From positions 1 through 20,201 of the IMG/VR virus record IMGVR_UViG_3300035698_004535: a DNA stretch of 20,201 bases. One strand, 5' to 3'. A program made the translations under genes and the position numbers. The DNA is from a virus. Below, in pieces: positions 1,797 through 13,521 of the stretch; position 1 is the first letter of the stretch, and the number at the start of each line of letters is the position of its first letter. The notes beneath the pieces are model-generated. The model had not been told where the DNA came from and searched no databases. It saw only the letters and a list, made by a program, of their open reading frames with translations.

Positions 1797-1926
1797 CATA
1801 CAACCGCAGAACCATGAGGACTGTCAGGATTTGCAAATGTTGGTAGAAAAGTATAAGTTTTGGGAAGAAAGAATAATTGAGGATTTAATTGAGGATATAG
1901 AACATGAAGAAATCAATAATAATTAA
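1774..1926 (+). CDS. Small hypothetical protein, 50 aa
   Basis: ATG 1774 has AAGAGGA (1763-1769) immediately upstream and opens 50 codons ending in TAA at 1924-1926. The product begins MKAKIIYDIQPQNHEDC and continues into an acidic helical segment rich in Glu, Asp and Ile. It overlaps the membrane-protein gene by 23 nt and the formyltransferase gene by 23 nt. Both overlaps are in other frames, the arrangement expected for translational coupling in a compact operon. No family recognised. It is the only open frame filling the gap between the membrane protein and the formyltransferase, which supports it as a real gene. Confidence 0.55.
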   Translation: MKAKIIYDIQPQNHEDCQDLQMLVEKYKFWEERIIEDLIEDIEHEEINNN

Positions 1927-2554
1927 TGCTAGAGGGTTCAGTGGTTTACAATTTATTAATGTTAACCGAACATATTTAAACTATTGCCCTACTTATGCAG
2001 AGTTGAAGAAACTAGACACTGAATACATATTCTTTATTCATTGGGCACACCATATCCCTTCAGATATATACGATAATTTCAAGTGCGTAGCATTTCATTT
2101 GACTGCATTGCCATATGGTAGAGGTGGCAGTCCTTTACAGAACTTAATTATAAGAGGACATAAAACAACAAAGATATCCGCAATAGAAGTAGTTGAAGGG
2201 TTCGACGCAGGAGATATTTATATGCAAAAAGATATAGATATATCTAAAGGTAGTGCAGAAGAGATATATTGTGAAGCTTATGACATAATAACACATCACA
2301 TGATTCCTGAAATACTTAAAGGAGATATAAAACCTATAAAGCAAGTAGGAGAAGTGGTAAAATTCAAACGTAGAAAACCTGAAGATAGTTTGATAACAGA
2401 TATAGAAGATTTAAGGTTAGTATACGATTTTATTAGAATGTTAGATGCGGAAGGATACCCCAAAGCGTTCATAAAGGTAAAAGATAAAAAGATAAAATTT
2501 AGTAATGTACATATGGAAAATAACAAATTAACAGGAGGATTCACAATTGAATAA
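1904..2554 (+). CDS. Formyltransferase-fold protein (Fmt/sugar N-formyltransferase-like), 216 aa
   Basis: This family transfers a formyl group from 10-formyl-tetrahydrofolate to a primary amine. The core motif is clear: AFHLTALPYGRGGSPLQN (residues 63-80) followed by VEGFDAGDIY (97-106). These match the HPSLLP..RG and DAGDI blocks of methionyl-tRNA and amino-sugar formyltransferases. Catalytic His (H65) and Asp (D101) are present, but the Asn two residues before His in the classic N-x-H-D set is Ala63. The C-terminal block RRKPEDSLI...YDFIRMLDAEGYPKAF typifies a short stand-alone subgroup lacking the C-terminal tRNA-binding domain of Fmt, so initiator-tRNA formylation is unlikely. The start at 1904 has only a modest GAGGATAT upstream and lies inside the preceding small gene. 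It overlaps the deacetylase gene by 8 nt, so both probably act on the same substrate: deacetylate, then formylate. Confidence 0.8.
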   Translation: MKKSIIINARGFSGLQFINVNRTYLNYCPTYAELKKLDTEYIFFIHWAHHIPSDIYDNFKCVAFHLTALPYGRGGSPLQNLIIRGHKTTKISAIEVVEGFDAGDIYMQKDIDISKGSAEEIYCEAYDIITHHMIPEILKGDIKPIKQVGEVVKFKRRKPEDSLITDIEDLRLVYDFIRMLDAEGYPKAFIKVKDKKIKFSNVHMENNKLTGGFTIE

Positions 2555-3221
2555 AAAGATATTAATAGTAGCGGCACACCCAGATGATGAAATTCTAGGT
2601 TGCAGTGGTTCAGTAACTAAGTTAGTAAACCAAGGATACGAGGCGCATGTATTAATACTTTCTACAGGTATAACCTCAAGGCTTAAAGATAAAGGTAACA
2701 AAAAGAAATTAGCTATTTTAAAACAGCAAGCAAAAGAAGCTAATAAGATTATAGGAATTACCAACGTAACTTTTTTAAATTTACCAGATCAAAAGTTTGA
2801 CACAGTATCAATACTAAAAATAGTACAATCTATTGAATATTATATAGATTTAATAAAACCTGAAATAGTGTTTACACACTTTGCTAATGATATCAACAAA
2901 GATCATCAAATTACTAATGAAGCAGTACTAACCGCAACAAGACCTATGGTAGGTCAATCAGTAAAGAGGATATACGCTTTTGAAATAGTATCTTCAACAG
3001 AATGGAATTATCCTTTAACATTTGCACCTAATGTATATATAAACATAGAAAATACTTTAAAAAATAAAATAGATGCAATGGATTGTTACCAATTAGAACT
3101 TAGAGAATACCCACACCAAAGATCATTAAAGAATATAGAACTTAATGCTGAATATTGGGGTAGGCGAGTAGGACTTGACAAAGCTGAAGCATTCCAGTTG
3201 TTAAGAAATGTTATATCTTAA
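2547..3221 (+). CDS. PIG-L/LmbE-family N-deacetylase, 224 aa
   Basis: The family comprises zinc-dependent hydrolases that remove acetyl groups from GlcNAc-type sugars and related amides. Residues 10-15 (AHPDDE) supply the metal-binding His-Pro-Asp-Asp signature. H111 (FTHF) and D119-H120 (NKDHQIT) match the downstream metal ligands. Length is normal for the family. The start is TTG at 2547, set by ACAGGAGGA at 2531-2539 and giving MNKKILIVAAHPDDE; no ATG fits. It overlaps the formyltransferase stop by 8 nt, implying coupled translation. With its partner it could swap an N-acetyl for an N-formyl group. Plausible targets are a host surface sugar (serotype change or receptor masking) or a modified base or other small molecule. 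The sequence does not decide between them. Confidence 0.85.
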   Translation: MNKKILIVAAHPDDEILGCSGSVTKLVNQGYEAHVLILSTGITSRLKDKGNKKKLAILKQQAKEANKIIGITNVTFLNLPDQKFDTVSILKIVQSIEYYIDLIKPEIVFTHFANDINKDHQITNEAVLTATRPMVGQSVKRIYAFEIVSSTEWNYPLTFAPNVYINIENTLKNKIDAMDCYQLELREYPHQRSLKNIELNAEYWGRRVGLDKAEAFQLLRNVIS

Positions 3222-3319: not shown

Positions 3320-3871
3320 ATGAATATAAATATAAAATTTATAAAAAATAATAGTGGGCAAATCCCTAAAATACCTAAAAATCCCCGAATAATAAAAGAT
3401 GAAAATTTTGAAAAACTTAAAAAATCTATTCAAGATAATCCTGAAATGTTAAACCTTAGAGAATTAATTGTATATCCATTTAAAGATGAATATATTTGTT
3501 TAGCTGGAAATATGAGATTAAAAGCTATGAAATGTTTAGGTTTTAAAGAGTGTATTTGTAAAGTAGTAGATAAAAATACATCTATAAAGAAATTAAAAGC
3601 TATAATCTTATTAGATAATAATACTTTTGGAGAAAATGATTGGTTTGCTTTAGATAAAGATTGGGAAAGGCAAGATTTGCTTGATTTTTATATAGATGGA
3701 TTCGAAATAAATACAAATTATACTAATAAAGAAATCAATATTGATGATTTTTCAAATAAAGTTATTTTAAAATTAGAATATAATAAAGAAGATTATATCA
3801 AAGTAAAGAATAAATTATTAGAAATAGCAGATACTTATGAAGACGCAGTTTTTAAACTATTAGGATTATAA
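3320..3871 (+). CDS. ParB/Srx-fold nuclease-like protein, 183 aa
   Basis: The N-terminal ~110 residues match the ParB/sulfiredoxin fold of phage 'ParB N-terminal domain' proteins: NPRIIKDENFEKL (21-33), a PEMLNLREL segment, and LAGNMRLKAM (61-70), the equivalent of the GERR/GNMR nucleotide-binding loop. The tail (KVILKLEYNKEDYIKVKN...AVFKLLGL) resembles the C-terminus of phage ParB-like proteins that partner methylases. There is no helix-turn-helix and no ParB dimerisation domain, so it is probably not a centromere-binding ParB. In phages such domains usually sit beside or fused to DNA methyltransferases. Here the stop codon (3869-3871) directly abuts the methyltransferase ATG at 3872. Role inferred: accessory subunit or nuclease linked to DNA modification. 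Base composition is markedly more AT-rich than the structural genes. Confidence 0.75.
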   Translation: MNINIKFIKNNSGQIPKIPKNPRIIKDENFEKLKKSIQDNPEMLNLRELIVYPFKDEYICLAGNMRLKAMKCLGFKECICKVVDKNTSIKKLKAIILLDNNTFGENDWFALDKDWERQDLLDFYIDGFEINTNYTNKEINIDDFSNKVILKLEYNKEDYIKVKNKLLEIADTYEDAVFKLLGL

Positions 3872-4915
3872 ATGTATAAATTCCCATATAAATGGTTTCT
3901 AAAAGATAATTATTGTTTAAGTAATATACCTAAAAATAAATTAAATGTATTTGGAACTTTTATTTGTGGTGGTGGTTCTACAATGGGTTATAAACTTGCA
4001 GGTTATAACCATTTAGGCGGAATAGAAATTGATAAAAAACTTACTAAAGTGTATAATATAAATCATAATCCAAAATATTTATATAATGAAGATATTAGGA
4101 TTTTTAATAAAAGAAATGATTTGCCAAAAGAATTATTTGATTTAGATATTTTAGATGGGAGTCCGCCTTGTAGTAGTTTTTCTATACAAGGGAAACGTGA
4201 AAAAGATTGGGGTAAAGAAAAAATATTTAAAGAAGGTCAAGCATTACAAAAATTAGATGATTTATTTTTTGATTTTATAGAATTAGCAAACAAATTAAGA
4301 CCAAAAGTAGTTATTGCTGAAAATGTTAAAGGACTAATACAAGGGAATGCTAAAAGTTATGTTTATGATATAATTAAAGAATTTAAGAATATAGGTTATA
4401 ATGTAACATTGTTTTTGTTAAATTCTGCGACTATGGGCATCCCCCAAAAAAGAGAAAGAGTTTTTTTTATATGTCATAGAAATGATATGAAATTTAAAAA
4501 ATTGATTTTTGATTTTAACGAAAAACCAATTATGTTTAGACAAATTAAACATAATTCAACAGAAGGGTCAAGAAAAGTATCAATTGAAGAAAAAAAATTA
4601 TGGGAATTAAGGAATATTAACGATATTAATTTAGCAGATACAAAAAAAAGATTAGGTTTAAAATGCAATAGGTTTACAACAGGATACGAAAAAGATAATA
4701 AAGTGCTATCAACCATAACAGCAAACGATAATAATATATTATTTAACGAATGTAGAAAATTAAATAATATAGAATATTGTTTAGCAAGTTCTTTTCCTTT
4801 GGACTATGATTTCTTAAATTCAGAAAAGAGATATATTGTTGGTATGTCAGTTCCGCCGGTAATGATGGCACAAATAAGTTATCAAATATATTTACAATGG
4901 TTTTTAAAGATATAA
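3872..4915 (+). CDS. C5-cytosine DNA methyltransferase, 347 aa
   Basis: Transfers a methyl group from S-adenosylmethionine to C5 of cytosine in duplex DNA. Conserved blocks appear in the family order: motif I TFICGGGSTMGYKLAG (29-44), motif II IEID (51-54), motif IV DGSPPCSSFS (95-104) with catalytic Cys100, motif VI AENV (149-152), motif VIII QKRER (192-196), and motif X GMSVPP (324-329; usual form GNxVPP). The protein is full length with a target-recognition region of about 100 residues. No restriction endonuclease gene is adjacent, so it is likely an orphan methylase protecting phage DNA from host restriction or marking it. It is translated directly after the ParB-like gene. Long A/T runs and very low GC set it apart from the virion genes and suggest separate acquisition. 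Confidence 0.92.
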   Translation: MYKFPYKWFLKDNYCLSNIPKNKLNVFGTFICGGGSTMGYKLAGYNHLGGIEIDKKLTKVYNINHNPKYLYNEDIRIFNKRNDLPKELFDLDILDGSPPCSSFSIQGKREKDWGKEKIFKEGQALQKLDDLFFDFIELANKLRPKVVIAENVKGLIQGNAKSYVYDIIKEFKNIGYNVTLFLLNSATMGIPQKRERVFFICHRNDMKFKKLIFDFNEKPIMFRQIKHNSTEGSRKVSIEEKKLWELRNINDINLADTKKRLGLKCNRFTTGYEKDNKVLSTITANDNNILFNECRKLNNIEYCLASSFPLDYDFLNSEKRYIVGMSVPPVMMAQISYQIYLQWFLKI

Positions 4916-4917
4916 AT

Positions 4918-4933
4918 TGTTTCACGTGAAACA
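4918..4933. promoter_or_regulatory. parS: Perfect parS centromere-like site
   Basis: TGTTTCACGTGAAACA at 4918-4933 is a perfect 16-bp palindrome with no spacer. It is identical to the bacterial parS consensus bound by chromosomal ParB (Spo0J). It starts two bases after the methyltransferase stop codon and ends before the next gene's AAGAGGA ribosome-binding site. Lack of a loop and U-tract rules out an intrinsic terminator. Because the neighbouring ParB-like protein lacks a DNA-binding HTH, host ParB is the likeliest ligand. A chance 16-base match in 20 kb is expected about 5 in a million times. Alternatives are an operator, or an anti-silencing or exclusion site. Confidence 0.8.
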
Positions 4934-4948
4934 TAATAAGAGGATTTT

Positions 4949-5521
4949 ATGGAAAGAGTAGTAAACATAATAGGTTTAGGTCCAAGTTCAAAAGACACAC
5001 CTGACACAGGCGAGAATTGGGCATTAAATGTAGCATATAAAAAGGTTAGACGTATTGATAAGATGTTTTTTATGGACGATTTCAAAATTATTAAGCATGA
5101 TGACGCTACTATTGAGCCAGTAGATTATACGATTGTTAATTTAATAGAGAACAATCCTTGTGTAGAGATATTTTCGAGAGCTGAAAGCATGATAAAAGAT
5201 TCTAAGGACAAAGATTTATGTAAAGTTAATAGATACCCATTAGATAAAGCAGTAGAATTAGCACCAGGTGGTTTTTTTACTTCAACGATTGCTTACACTA
5301 TATGTTATGCAATACTTGAGAAAGTCGATAGAATCAGATTGTATGGTATGGAAATATGGTCGGGATCAAATGCTAATGAATATTATTATCAGAAACCTTG
5401 TGTTGATTTTTGGTTAGCTTTTGCAATAGGTCGAGGTATAAAAGTTGAAATTCCATATTATTTAATGTTGACTGCTGATAATAACCAAAATTATTACGGA
5501 TATGTAAAAAATGAATTATAA
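4949..5521 (+). CDS. Rossmann-like phage protein (MptE/DUF115-resembling), 190 aa
   Basis: ATG 4949 follows AAGAGGA. The N-terminus, VVNIIGLGPSSKDTPDTG, has the Gly-rich 'GxGPSx' loop after a hydrophobic strand found in Rossmann-like proteins of the MptE/DUF115 kind, which are related to nucleotide- and glycosyl-handling enzymes. KMFFMDDF (38-45), FFTSTIAYTICYAI (around 109-122), DRIRLYGMEIW (around 127-137) and YYYQKPCVDFWLAFAIGRGIKV (around 145-166) complete an alternating strand/helix pattern. No signal peptide or membrane helix. I know similar uncharacterised proteins from tailed phages, often upstream of the terminase genes. The specific reaction is unknown. The gene lies just behind the parS site, and base composition returns towards that of the rest of the phage. 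Confidence 0.55.
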   Translation: MERVVNIIGLGPSSKDTPDTGENWALNVAYKKVRRIDKMFFMDDFKIIKHDDATIEPVDYTIVNLIENNPCVEIFSRAESMIKDSKDKDLCKVNRYPLDKAVELAPGGFFTSTIAYTICYAILEKVDRIRLYGMEIWSGSNANEYYYQKPCVDFWLAFAIGRGIKVEIPYYLMLTADNNQNYYGYVKNEL

Positions 5522-6367: not shown

Positions 6368-6805
6368 ATGGCTAATAATGAAAACTTGATACCTTTGAAT
6401 AAACGCTCCAAAGAAGACGCAAAGAAAATTCAAGAGATGGGTGCGAAAGCGGCAAATGAAGCTAAAGTTAAGAAAAAGACTATGAAAGAAGCGTTTCAGA
6501 TGGTGCTTGAAATGCGACCCCCTGATAAGATCACAAATAACAAAGGCGATAAACATTATCAAATAGTCTCAAAAATAAAAGAAATGTTTCCTGACATATC
6601 AGATGTAGAAATAACGAACAGACTTGCACTGGTTTATATGGTATATAGAAAATGTTTGCTTGGAGATATGCGAGCAATTGAAATTTTTAGAGATACGGCA
6701 GGCGAAAAACCAACAGACAAGACTGAAAACAATAGCACAGTAAAATTAAAAATAGATAGGAAAGAAGTTAAGGACTATGCAGATGAGTTGCGTAAAAACC
6801 TATGA
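6368..6805 (+). CDS. terS: Terminase small subunit-like protein, 145 aa
   Basis: The small terminase binds phage DNA and directs the large subunit to cut and package it. The protein starts MANNENLIPLNKRSKEDAKKIQ and continues with GAKAANEAKVKKKTMKEAFQ. This is the 'NLIPLNKR...G..A...R..KKTM' pattern typical of small DNA-packaging proteins next to Mu-like terminases. The middle (DVEITNRLALVYMVYRKCLLGDMRAIEIFRDTAGEKP) matches the usual C-terminal 'GD..A.E..RDT.GEKP' block. Its stop overlaps the terL start (ATGA, 6802-6805), so translation is coupled. Family is assigned from the motif pattern plus position. Confidence 0.75.
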   Translation: MANNENLIPLNKRSKEDAKKIQEMGAKAANEAKVKKKTMKEAFQMVLEMRPPDKITNNKGDKHYQIVSKIKEMFPDISDVEITNRLALVYMVYRKCLLGDMRAIEIFRDTAGEKPTDKTENNSTVKLKIDRKEVKDYADELRKNL

Positions 6806-8304
6806 ATCATGAAGAACTAGACGATTATCTAGACACACCTGAAAATATATTAAAGACACGAATTGCATTATTGAACAGTTTTGATATGTATATTAAGTTC
6901 ATGTTTTTGACTATAAATCAAACCAATATAACAATAAAGCCTTTTCATTTGGAAGTTATCAACAAACTAGAAAGCATTGTATTCCAGACTAATGAAAAAC
7001 GAAACTTGATTTTAAACTTGCCTGTTGGTTCTGGTAAATCTTTAATAGTACAATATTTTATTTCATGGTGTTTCGCTCGAGATATCAATAATGCCTTTGT
7101 TTATGTATCATATTCTAACACCTTAATAAATAAGTTATCCAACGAAACTAAAGACATTGTGCAAAATACCACTTGGCAGTTATTATTCGATTCAAAGTTG
7201 AAAATATCTGAAAAATCTAAAGTGAATTGGTCTTTTGACGGGTCCGTAAACAGAACAGGTTTAACGGCAGGCATTATGGGTGGAGCAATAACAGGACTAG
7301 ACGCAGGCAACCCAAACATTGAAGGTTTTAGTGGTGCATTAATTATAGATGACCCCATAGACGCCTCAAATGTTCGTCACGAGCTCGCAAGGAATGATTG
7401 TGTAGGTTTCTATGAAAACAAGCTTACAACAAGAAGAAGAACACCACAGACACCAACAATATTGATTATGCAAAGACTTCATGTTGATGATTTGACTGGT
7501 TATCTAGCTGAGACTTACAAAGATTATGATATATTGGTAGTGCAAGCATTAAATGAAAATAACACTAGCTTTTGGGCTGAAAGGTTTCCACTTGCAGAGC
7601 TAAACATTATTCGAGACAACACACCTGATAAATATTTTTCACAATACCAACAAAACCCAACAAAGAATGGAGGTAATTTGTTTAAATTAGATTGGTTCAA
7701 GTTCATCGAAGAATTACCTTCAAAATATGAATATACTTTTATTACTTCTGATACAGCGTACAAAGACAAACAACAGAACGATTTTACAGTGTTTGCATAT
7801 TGGGGCGTGATAAGAGTTGAAAACAAAAAGGTATTGATCTTAATTGACATGAAGCGAAGACAAATAAAATCAATAGATATTGAGGGTTGGATAGATCAAT
7901 GGATTAAATCTAAAATAACTTATGGGTTCAGATACACTTGGATTGAAGATAAGGGACATGGTATTTATTTAAATCAAGCTTTCAGGGTAAAAAATTATCA
8001 CATTCCAACAGAAGAAGATATGGCTGAAATGTTACCTAGAGGTGCAGACAAAGTTGAACGAGCCAATAACTCTATACCTTGGATAGATAAAATAATCCAT
8101 AATGTGTATATAAATAACAATATAAGTTGCATAGAAGACTATAAGAAAGAGCTAATAGGCTTTCCTACGGCTAAACATGATGACACAGTAGATGTTACAG
8201 TAGACGCTATCAAGATCGCACTAACAGAGGAGACAATTAATTACGAAGAAGTAAATGAAGAAATGGAAGAAATGAATGACAGAGAGAGCTTGGGGGATTA
8301 TTAA
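6802..8304 (+). CDS. terL: Terminase large subunit (ATPase/nuclease), 500 aa
   Basis: Motor that pumps DNA into the prohead and cuts concatemers. Walker A is LNLPVGSGKS (71-80), Walker B is ALIIDDPID (179-187), and a 'TRR...PTILIMQRLHVDDLTG' coupling motif lies at 210-233. The RNase H-fold nuclease begins with FITSDTAYKD (313-322, D317 as first metal ligand), and the last acidic cluster is in GFPTAKHDDTVD near residues 455-470. Length is normal for Mu gp28-like or headful terminases. It overlaps terS by 4 nt and is followed by a 52-aa ORF and a terminator. Confidence 0.93.
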   Translation: MNHEELDDYLDTPENILKTRIALLNSFDMYIKFMFLTINQTNITIKPFHLEVINKLESIVFQTNEKRNLILNLPVGSGKSLIVQYFISWCFARDINNAFVYVSYSNTLINKLSNETKDIVQNTTWQLLFDSKLKISEKSKVNWSFDGSVNRTGLTAGIMGGAITGLDAGNPNIEGFSGALIIDDPIDASNVRHELARNDCVGFYENKLTTRRRTPQTPTILIMQRLHVDDLTGYLAETYKDYDILVVQALNENNTSFWAERFPLAELNIIRDNTPDKYFSQYQQNPTKNGGNLFKLDWFKFIEELPSKYEYTFITSDTAYKDKQQNDFTVFAYWGVIRVENKKVLILIDMKRRQIKSIDIEGWIDQWIKSKITYGFRYTWIEDKGHGIYLNQAFRVKNYHIPTEEDMAEMLPRGADKVERANNSIPWIDKIIHNVYINNNISCIEDYKKELIGFPTAKHDDTVDVTVDAIKIALTEETINYEEVNEEMEEMNDRESLGDY

Positions 8305-8524: not shown

Positions 8525-8536
8525 GAGGTGGAGCCT

Positions 8537-10813
8537 TTGGGAATATTAAATTTTTTCAGTAAAGAAAAACAAGAGCAAGAACAATCAGTACACTACACAG
8601 TAGAAACATCAACATATCTATCTTCTTACTATGCTGATTCACAACTTAATCCTTATAACATAGATGATCTAGTTCAAAAAAAAGGCTTAGAAGCTTATGA
8701 GCGTATGGAAATAGACGATCAAATCAAAGCTTCATATATGTTGAAAAAGCTTATGATTGTATCTAGGAATTGGGATATAGAGAGTGTTGACACTTCCGAA
8801 AGTTCTAAAGAACAATCAGATTTTATTTATTATTGTCTTACTGACGGACTAAGTGGGGTGTTTAAAGATTTTTTACATGGTATGTTATCAGCATTACAAT
8901 ATGGGTTTTCGATAAGTGAAAAAACTTATAAAATATTTGAGAATGGTAAACATAAAAACAAAATTGGTATAAAGTTTTTAAAAACTAAACCCGCTAGTTC
9001 TTTTGAGTTTGATTTAGATGAGTTCGGAAATATAAGAGATTTGCTCCAACATCAAGAGCAAGAAAGTAAATCATTAGATTTGGAAAAGTTTATTGTTTAT
9101 TCATACAATGCGAAGTTCCTAAATCCTTATGGCAGGAGTGATTTTAGGAGTGCATATCGTAGTTGGTGGTCTAAAGATATAATCATAAAGTTTTGGAATA
9201 TATATCTTGAACGAAATGGAATGCCAACCACAGTTGGAAGATATAAACAAGGAACAGACAAAACAGAAAGAACGAATTTGAAAAACATTTTAAATAAATT
9301 GACTGCCAAATCGGCAATGGTAATACCCGAAGGTTTGGACGTTGAATTTCTTGAAGCCAAGAATGGAAGCATAAACTATGAGAATGCAGTAAAGGCACAC
9401 AACACAATGATATCAAGATCATTTCTATTGCCTGAACTAATTGGATTCACAGATCATGATTCAGGTTCACAATCACTAGGCAAAGAACAGTTTGATATAT
9501 TTTATAAGATATTAGAAGATATTCAAATCAACCTAGAGGATTTAATAAATGAGCGTTTAATTAAAGAGCTGATAAATTATAACTTTCCGAATGTTACTGA
9601 ATACCCTAAGTTTAGATTTTCTCCAATAGATAATAGAGACAAAGGAGTTTTATATAAAGTTTGGTTAGACGCAGTTAAGATTGGTGCTGTATTGACGACT
9701 AAAGATGATGAAGATTATTTAAGAAATGAAATTGGTTTACCTAAACGTAATAAAGAGAATACAGATTTAATGCCTGTTTCAATTCCAAAGGAAGAATCCA
9801 AAGAGCCATTAGAACCTGGAACAGAGCCAGGAGAAAAACCATTAGAACCAGGGAAAAAGCCAACAGAATTAGTGCCGAAATCAAAAGGGAAAGAAGATAA
9901 GTTGTCAGAAAAGTTATTTAGTCGAGATCAGACAGTTTATGAGACAAAAATAAACTTAACTGAAATAGCTAATGATTATGCAGATTTGGGATTAGATTTT
10001 GCCAAAGACCTGAGTGACATATTAGAAGACATTGAAAATTCTATGTTAGTTAAAATTAAAATGAAAAACATTGTTAAGAATAAGAATTTCAGTGCAATAA
10101 ATGATATAACGATCACTACTGCAGAGATGAAAAAGTTGTCTTCTGTATTCTTAAAAAACATGAAGAAAATATATAGACAAGCAGAGCAAACATCGCTTAA
10201 AGATATCAAGAAAAACTTAGATCAAGAATTAATAGAATTGGATTTGACTGGCGATCTATTGCCCGAAGAAGCACTGAATTATATAACTTCTAAGTCTATA
10301 AATATAACTGGCACAGAGGCTAATTTTATTAAAAAAGCAGTTAAGGACATTTTATATAATGGTCTAAGAAATGGCAAGACTGAAAGCATGATAATGTTTG
10401 AGTTGTCAGGATTCTTTGAAGAGTACAAAGTATATCAGACAGTTGCTAATAAATACGGAAGAAAGGTATTGCTTATTGACGAAATAAAAGGGCGAATAAA
10501 TACAATTGTACGAACGAATTTATCAGACGCTTACAATATGGGCAGAGTAGCATCATATAACAATCCAAAAGTCTCCGGGTTTATTGCGGCACTACAATAT
10601 AGTGCAATACTAGATGATAGAACGACAGATTTTTGCAGTTCTTATGATGGTCGTATTTTTGCTAAGAATGACCCAATTTGGGGAAGCATAACCCCCCCAA
10701 ATCATTTTTCTTGTAGGTCAACGACCATAGCAGTATTTAAAGGAGATAAATATAAAACTAATAAAAGCTTAGCAATACAACAACCAGTGCAGTTCGGTGG
10801 TAAATCGAATTAA
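8537..10813 (+). CDS. Portal protein (DUF935/Mu gp29-like) fused to MuF-type head domain, 758 aa
   Basis: The portal forms the ring at the capsid vertex for DNA passage. Residues about 30-390 match the DUF935 portal pattern: MLKKLMIVSRNWDIES, LQYGFSISEKTY, NPYGRSDFRSAYRSWW, LERNGMPTTVGRY and SLGKEQFDIFYK. A Glu/Pro linker with a duplicated block (about residues 418-445; DNA repeat CCATTAGAACC at 9806 and 9839) leads to a helical region. A MuF/SPP1 gp7 minor-head domain then ends the protein: RTNLSDAYNMGR (about 657), DDRTTDFC (about 692), PPNHFSCRS (about 719). I chose TTG 8537 (MGILNFFSK) because GAGGTGGAG (8525-8533) is then a usable ribosome-binding site. GTG 8528 lies within that site and has only the terminator T-run before it. 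Confidence 0.85.
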   Translation: MGILNFFSKEKQEQEQSVHYTVETSTYLSSYYADSQLNPYNIDDLVQKKGLEAYERMEIDDQIKASYMLKKLMIVSRNWDIESVDTSESSKEQSDFIYYCLTDGLSGVFKDFLHGMLSALQYGFSISEKTYKIFENGKHKNKIGIKFLKTKPASSFEFDLDEFGNIRDLLQHQEQESKSLDLEKFIVYSYNAKFLNPYGRSDFRSAYRSWWSKDIIIKFWNIYLERNGMPTTVGRYKQGTDKTERTNLKNILNKLTAKSAMVIPEGLDVEFLEAKNGSINYENAVKAHNTMISRSFLLPELIGFTDHDSGSQSLGKEQFDIFYKILEDIQINLEDLINERLIKELINYNFPNVTEYPKFRFSPIDNRDKGVLYKVWLDAVKIGAVLTTKDDEDYLRNEIGLPKRNKENTDLMPVSIPKEESKEPLEPGTEPGEKPLEPGKKPTELVPKSKGKEDKLSEKLFSRDQTVYETKINLTEIANDYADLGLDFAKDLSDILEDIENSMLVKIKMKNIVKNKNFSAINDITITTAEMKKLSSVFLKNMKKIYRQAEQTSLKDIKKNLDQELIELDLTGDLLPEEALNYITSKSINITGTEANFIKKAVKDILYNGLRNGKTESMIMFELSGFFEEYKVYQTVANKYGRKVLLIDEIKGRINTIVRTNLSDAYNMGRVASYNNPKVSGFIAALQYSAILDDRTTDFCSSYDGRIFAKNDPIWGSITPPNHFSCRSTTIAVFKGDKYKTNKSLAIQQPVQFGGKSN

Positions 10814-12558: not shown

Positions 12559-13521
12559 ATGATAAAGAAAAAGATATTATTAGCAGATGATATGGGAACG
12601 ATACACGTTTCACAACCATTATCTAATGTAGCGGTTGAGTTTAAACAACCTAAAAATATTTGGAATGAAGTGATGAAACCTGTGCCAGTAGATAAAGAAA
12701 ATGACACCTATTATATATTTGGTGACGAAGATTTCCGATATCATGGCAAGAAAAGAGCTGATGGAGACCCAGCAGTTAGAATATTACCTTTCACAGCTTC
12801 AACAGACACATATGCTTGTATAGAAACAGCATACGATGTTTTACTTACTAAAAGACAGATCAACAAAGCTGACAAAATAGTAATGTTAAAGAATAGATCG
12901 ACAAATAGATTAATGAATATCATTGATAGAGATATTGAAATTGAAGTTGCGGCAGAAGCGTTTGGAGCTAGTAATTATACAGGCATGACAGCGGCACCTT
13001 CAACAAAATGGGATACAAAATTAACAGGTTCGCCTATTTCCGATATTGATACTGCAAAAACATTAGTACAAGCACAAATCGGAATAGACCCAAATGTTAT
13101 AGTTATGGGCAGAGAAGTATACGACCAATTAAAAAGACACGCAGAGTTAAAAGAAATTGTTAAGTACACAAAAACAGCGGCTTTCATAACTCCTGAATTA
13201 ATGGCGTCAATATTTGGTGTTGATAAGGTTGTAGTTGGAGACCAAATTTATATCACTTCAAAACCTGGCCAAACAACAGTGACAAGGTCTTACGTATGGG
13301 GCAAATCATGTGCTTTGTTATATGTTCCACAAGCAAGTGCTATTGATGAACCAGCTTGGGGTTATACATTCATGCACAAGTTGTTTGGTAAATTAACAGC
13401 AAAAGTAAAAAACTATCCTGAACATAAGTTGAATGGTGAAATATTAGAAGCTTCAAGATCATTTGTGCCTAAGGTTACAGGTAAAAAAGCAGGTTACTTA
13501 TATACAACAGTTGTTAATTAA
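12559..13521 (+). CDS. Major capsid protein, 320 aa
   Basis: ATG 12559 follows TAAAGGAGG. Assigned as the HK97-fold major capsid protein from length, position after the decoration gene, and sequence features. These are an early VSQPLSNVAVEFKQ segment, the exposed ADGDPAVRILPFTASTDTYACIETAYDVLLTKRQ (E-loop-like), the spine-helix RSTNRLMNIIDRDIEIEVAAEAFG, then DIDTAKTLVQAQIGIDPNVIVMGREVYDQLKRH, FGVDKVVVGDQIY and a C-terminal strand set ending in KKAGYLYTTVVN. The 'P..iVMG..vy..L..h' stretch is typical of the axial domain in capsid proteins of this group. No catalytic motif. It should be the most abundant virion protein. Confidence 0.85.
   Translation: MIKKKILLADDMGTIHVSQPLSNVAVEFKQPKNIWNEVMKPVPVDKENDTYYIFGDEDFRYHGKKRADGDPAVRILPFTASTDTYACIETAYDVLLTKRQINKADKIVMLKNRSTNRLMNIIDRDIEIEVAAEAFGASNYTGMTAAPSTKWDTKLTGSPISDIDTAKTLVQAQIGIDPNVIVMGREVYDQLKRHAELKEIVKYTKTAAFITPELMASIFGVDKVVVGDQIYITSKPGQTTVTRSYVWGKSCALLYVPQASAIDEPAWGYTFMHKLFGKLTAKVKNYPEHKLNGEILEASRSFVPKVTGKKAGYLYTTVVN

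Follow-up and report, generated by a model that had tools for sequence, protein, structure and literature searches.

We found that a tailed phage fragment carries an exact copy of the chromosomal-type parS consensus in the short gap between two of its genes, and this site probably functions as a parS at which the ParB-CTP clamps of the host are loaded onto the phage DNA.

An exact parS consensus site between two phage genes

The window, by which we mean the whole stretch of DNA analysed, is an entire virus record of 20,201 bp. It encodes a terminase, a Mu-type portal with an F-like head domain, a head protease, a major head protein, connector proteins and a tape measure, and the record is a fragment of a tailed phage. 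The features discussed below are the following.

3320..3871, + strand: ParB-N-like protein without HTH, adjoining the methyltransferase (PF02195, 18.1 bits, under cut-off; phrog_17622, E=1e-36)
3872..4915, + strand: C5-cytosine DNA methyltransferase (PF00145, E=8e-47; phrog_116, E=3e-70)
4918..4933, no strand assigned: parS, TGTTTCACGTGAAACA, a perfect 16-bp palindrome and the proposed nucleation site for host ParB
4949..5521, + strand: 190-aa ORF with its ribosome-binding region directly after parS (from the ORF list)
6802..8304, + strand: terminase large subunit, which marks the contig as tailed phage (phrog_38, E=4e-76)
8528..10813, + strand: portal fused to a Mu F-like minor head domain (PF06074, E=7e-61; PF04233, E=4e-14)
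12559..13521, + strand: major head protein (phrog_1005, E=2e-68)

The 16-mer TGTTTCACGTGAAACA at 4918-4933 has 0 mismatches to chromosomal-type parS, for which up to 2 mismatches were allowed, and it equals the parS consensus of published surveys as given in PMC10197239, citing Livny et al. 2007. The site begins 2 bp past the stop codon of the methyltransferase gene (ORF 3872-4915) and lies 15 bp ahead of the ATG of ORF 4949-5521; it takes up half of the 33-bp intergenic gap, and its end just precedes the ribosome-binding region. The first-pass annotation had described an exact and perfectly palindromic parS just after the methyltransferase stop codon, the sole such site in the window, and both descriptions were borne out, since no second match was found in the 20,201 bp at up to 3 mismatches. 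Multiple copies, for which it had proposed to search related phages, are not present in the window, which has a single parS. Dinucleotide shuffles of the window gave 0.15 parS matches at up to 3 mismatches, and the expected number of exact TGTTTCACGTGAAACA copies is 5.3e-6 from the base composition or 5.6e-6 from the dinucleotide composition. No other perfect 16-bp palindrome is present in the window. Judged by its sequence, the 16-mer at 4918-4933 thus appears to be a genuine chromosomal-type parS on a phage.

The ORF that follows the site (4949-5521) has no Pfam match above cut-off and no PHROG, and no relatives of it were found in IMG/VR. Upstream of the ParB-like and methyltransferase genes, adjacent formyltransferase-like and PIG-L deacetylase-like proteins are encoded at 1904-3221, and this gene pair is possibly a sugar- or DNA-modification cassette.

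No canonical ParB or ParA in the 20-kb record

A canonical ParB was not detected in the 20-kb record, in which no ORF matched TIGR00180 or PF17762 (HTH_ParB); this absence covers the 20-kb fragment alone, and a ParB encoded elsewhere in the phage genome is possible. No ParA was found among the ORFs scanned in the window, which is likewise a fragment. The parA and canonical parB that define a self-encoded phage ParABS are therefore missing from the 20-kb fragment, and the phi29-type combination, a parS carried with no own ParB, is what the fragment has. The protein encoded at 3320-3871 resembles phage ParB-like families and has a weak ParB_N likeness (18.1 bits); from its sequence, it does not appear to be a canonical ParB. 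A survey describes ParB-CTPase folds that are fused to methyltransferase domains and are enriched in prophage regions (PMC12704722), which suggests that ORF 3320-3871 is more likely to serve DNA modification, within a cassette, than partition. The earlier view that this ParB-like neighbour lacks an HTH agrees with the family searches. Since the neighbour has no recognisable HTH and no canonical ParB was found in the record, the host ParB is the plausible binder, as had been proposed, and the phi29 precedent supports the same proposal. Searches of genome contigs for prophages or a host, made by portal and MCP alignment, returned no relatives.

parS presence and position among relatives

Relatives of the phage were sought with the portal (8528..10813) and the major head protein (12559..13521) as queries. 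The portal searches of IMG/VR gave 273 relatives, and the best 80 of the 273 were kept. Among those kept, the nearest is L135 (portal 62%, 11 kb). In L135, AGTTTCACGTGAAACA stands at 4737, in a small ORF that separates terminase from portal and close to the 3' end of that ORF; AGTTTCACGTGAAACA differs from TGTTTCACGTGAAACA in the first base alone. The window interval that matches this region, between terminase and portal, has no parS. In G002, a more distant relative (portal 38%, MCP 47%, 40 kb), AGTTTCACGTGAAACA is found at 28919 within a reading frame spelling V-S-R-E-T, in an ORF with a putative tail-collar domain, and the match in G002 may therefore have arisen through coding alone, as a coincidence. 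L135 and G002 thus have one parS each, at non-homologous places. At up to 2 mismatches, parS was found neither in 38 further, more distant relatives, many of which are fragments, nor in four Bacillus phage isolates whose portals are about 30% identical, and a terminase search yielded one distant relative, also without parS. As a control, the relatives, roughly 1 Mb in all, were searched with 30 shuffled palindromes matched in composition, which gave 0 matches when up to 1 mismatch was allowed.

These results suggest that the presence of parS is partly conserved, and they show that its position is not and that carriage is sporadic. Conservation of the 16-mer in related phages, on which the first-pass annotation had staked its proposal, stood in so far as L135 and G002 have a near-exact single copy and failed in the 38 others; conservation at the same location failed altogether, with the sites of L135 and G002 lying elsewhere. 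Such a pattern speaks for a ParB loading site, which can work from any point of the molecule, more than for an operator or a terminator. Separately, an ORF near the terminase of L135 (655-1224) resembles a ParB-N-type protein by eye, in a gene context that differs from that of the window.

parS is over-represented in viral collections

In IMG/VR, the exact TGTTTCACGTGAAACA was found in at least 120 stretches and the variant TGTTCCACGTGAAACA also in at least 120. As negative controls, the letters of TGTTTCACGTGAAACA written backwards were found in 1 stretch, and parS with the central CG swapped to GC in 33 stretches. In 59 of the 120 IMG/VR stretches listed, parS at its first occurrence was not within any ORF of at least 100 aa, compared to 18 expected. 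Since IMG/VR includes misclassified contigs, and contigs with many clustered sites may be bacterial origin regions, we based the argument on phage records with annotation. Of these, 356 matched a query for two copies of parS, compared to 18 for the control; 94 of the records stand under Listeria and were discounted, as they include many short unannotated 'Listeria phage LM' contigs that are suspected to be bacterial. In INPHARED, Listeria phage LM 4-11-1 and LM 4-14-1 each consist of many short unannotated contigs under one name with many parS matches, and these contigs are probably bacterial sequence in a phage collection.

The matching annotated phages include phi29-like phages, Spiroplasma phage 4 and other microviruses, inoviruses and Lactobacillus Herelleviridae, as well as Bacillus, Microbacterium, Gordonia and Arthrobacter phages. 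When 14 annotated phages were searched whole, all 14 had parS, with 1-6 sites each at up to 2 mismatches, the control pattern was present in none, and none encoded a ParB over the curated TIGR00180 or PF17762 cut-offs; matches below threshold were a ParB_N-type match in Microbacterium phage Paschalis and an HTH match in Butyrivibrio virus Arian. Among the roughly one hundred distinct matches listed, there were no phages of Escherichia, Salmonella or Klebsiella. To our knowledge, hosts of this group lack a chromosomal ParABS, and the lack of their phages among the matches listed therefore points in the direction of host-ParB use, although it is not a count. Taken together, these searches show that parS is strongly over-represented in viruses.

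Several arrangements of the site were noted along the way. The inovirus bajarodino virus 6 (PQ006135.1, 5910 bp) has six exact parS and no ParB match. Bacillus phage vB_BcoS-136 has four exact parS within 1 kb between small ORFs (record 29256-30261), and with no ParB gene over cut-off this group looks like a dedicated centromere-like cluster. Several Microbacterium phages have an exact parS within a gene whose annotation is (HTH) DNA-binding protein, for example in the stretch 41712-42551 of Paschalis (L218). Sites located within ORFs are often translated as V-S-R-E-T in low-complexity, linker-like stretches (IMG/VR loci L003, L005, L008, L054, L055, L067, L104 and others), as though parS had been accommodated where the protein tolerates it.

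Comparison with known partition systems

The partition cassettes of phages and plasmid-prophages (P1, N15, actinophage parABS) encode ParA and ParB themselves and use a centromere private to them. The window shares with these cassettes a centromere-like site carried by a phage; it differs in that its site matches the host-type consensus and in that no canonical ParB was found in the 20-kb record. Compared to chromosomal ParABS, the 16-bp site is identical (the Livny et al. 2007 consensus, as given in PMC10197239); in contrast, the window has no parA or parB beside the site, and a single phage site takes the place of an origin-proximal cluster.

The closest parallel is phi29. Entrapment of the phi29 chromosome in spores is reportedly brought about by Spo0J, which is the Bacillus ParB (Meijer et al. 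2005, cited by PMC9437464). We found four parS of the form TGTTCCACGTGAAACA in phi29 and no own ParB above the family cut-offs. Like phi29, the window phage has a chromosomal-type parS and no own ParB above the cut-offs, and host ParB is the proposed binder. Unlike phi29, it has one site instead of four and another virion type (terminase, Mu-type portal, tape measure), and it shows no evidence of sporulation or Spo0A sites.

Loading of host ParB and alternative explanations

The 16-mer is likely to work as a parS of the chromosomal type, loading host ParB-CTP clamps onto the phage DNA. This explanation is favoured because an exact site is rare by chance (5e-6 expected) and here fills the gap from stop codon to ribosome-binding site, because parS is far commoner than control palindromes in viral collections, and because of the near-exact parS in L135 and G002, the ParB-less phages with parS and the phi29 precedent. 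The sporadic carriage in relatives, the single site in a 20-kb fragment and the possible coding coincidence in G002 count against it. In the proposed mechanism, the HTH of ParB would recognise the palindrome, and ParB would close round the DNA in a CTP-dependent manner and then slide away. The ParB-coated phage DNA would engage host ParA, SMC or both, and it would thereby be positioned or co-segregated with the nucleoid while the infection is dormant, slow or in a carrier state, the same role as that of Spo0J for phi29 in sporulating Bacillus. Three steps in this account are inferred: possession of a parS-type ParB by the host, binding of this ParB at 4918-4933, and a benefit to the phage in segregation or positioning.

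An unlikely alternative keeps the recruitment of host ParB and gives it a local or decoy function: ParB spreading from parS would dampen read-through from the methyltransferase gene into the next gene, or ParB would be titrated from the chromosome. The position of parS in a 33-bp gap between two same-strand genes suits this idea, and in Pseudomonas increased ParB is reported to potentiate the repression of promoters that adjoin parS3 and parS4 (PMC5521831). However, the neighbouring genes differ in the relatives and in the other phages examined, hence there is no fixed target gene, and one site would titrate little ParB unless the phage were at high copy.

We give still less credence to the site being a passive remnant, either of host chromosomal DNA or of chance, that is of no use to the phage. 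The lack of parS in most distant relatives and the different positions of the closest copies agree with a remnant, but only 5e-6 copies are expected by chance, the site has no host-like flank and sits in an intergenic gap inside the phage gene array, and parS recurs across unrelated phages. Finally, a repressor operator, methylation target, RNA hairpin or other signal of the phage's own that happens to equal parS is very improbable, since the perfect palindrome, although it follows a methyltransferase gene and immediately precedes a ribosome-binding site, is identical to the 16-bp parS consensus, is far commoner than control palindromes, even one with just two central bases changed, is not conserved in position, and shows ordinary RNA folding (z=-0.89) and no terminator-like site. 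A hairpin or terminator role at parS is unsupported on the last two grounds.

Generality of host ParB loading

The phage groups for which carriage of a host-type parS can be named are ssDNA microviruses, inoviruses, phi29-like podophages, Herelleviridae and actinophages. Our searches of open-licence papers turned up citations of phi29 and Spo0J in work on other topics only and no survey of phage parS sites, and carriage among unrelated phages appears to be far wider than the searched papers report. The use of host ParB by phi29 is already known, and what appears to be new is the distribution across phage classes, which is absent from the searched open-licence papers. With belief and doubt evenly balanced, we propose that phages have widely adapted by carrying the parS of their hosts and no ParB, so that unrelated phages borrow ParB clamps for positioning, segregation or dormancy, and that the window is an instance in a further tailed lineage, with the site at non-homologous positions. 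The idea that phages borrow host ParB is testable by mutation of the 16 bp in cultured phages that carry parS. If true, it would explain how phages that lack partition genes might be inherited or positioned in carrier or dormant states. If many kinds of phage load host ParB, the chromosome-segregation machinery of the host would be something that phages commonly draw on, and phi29 would not be a special case.
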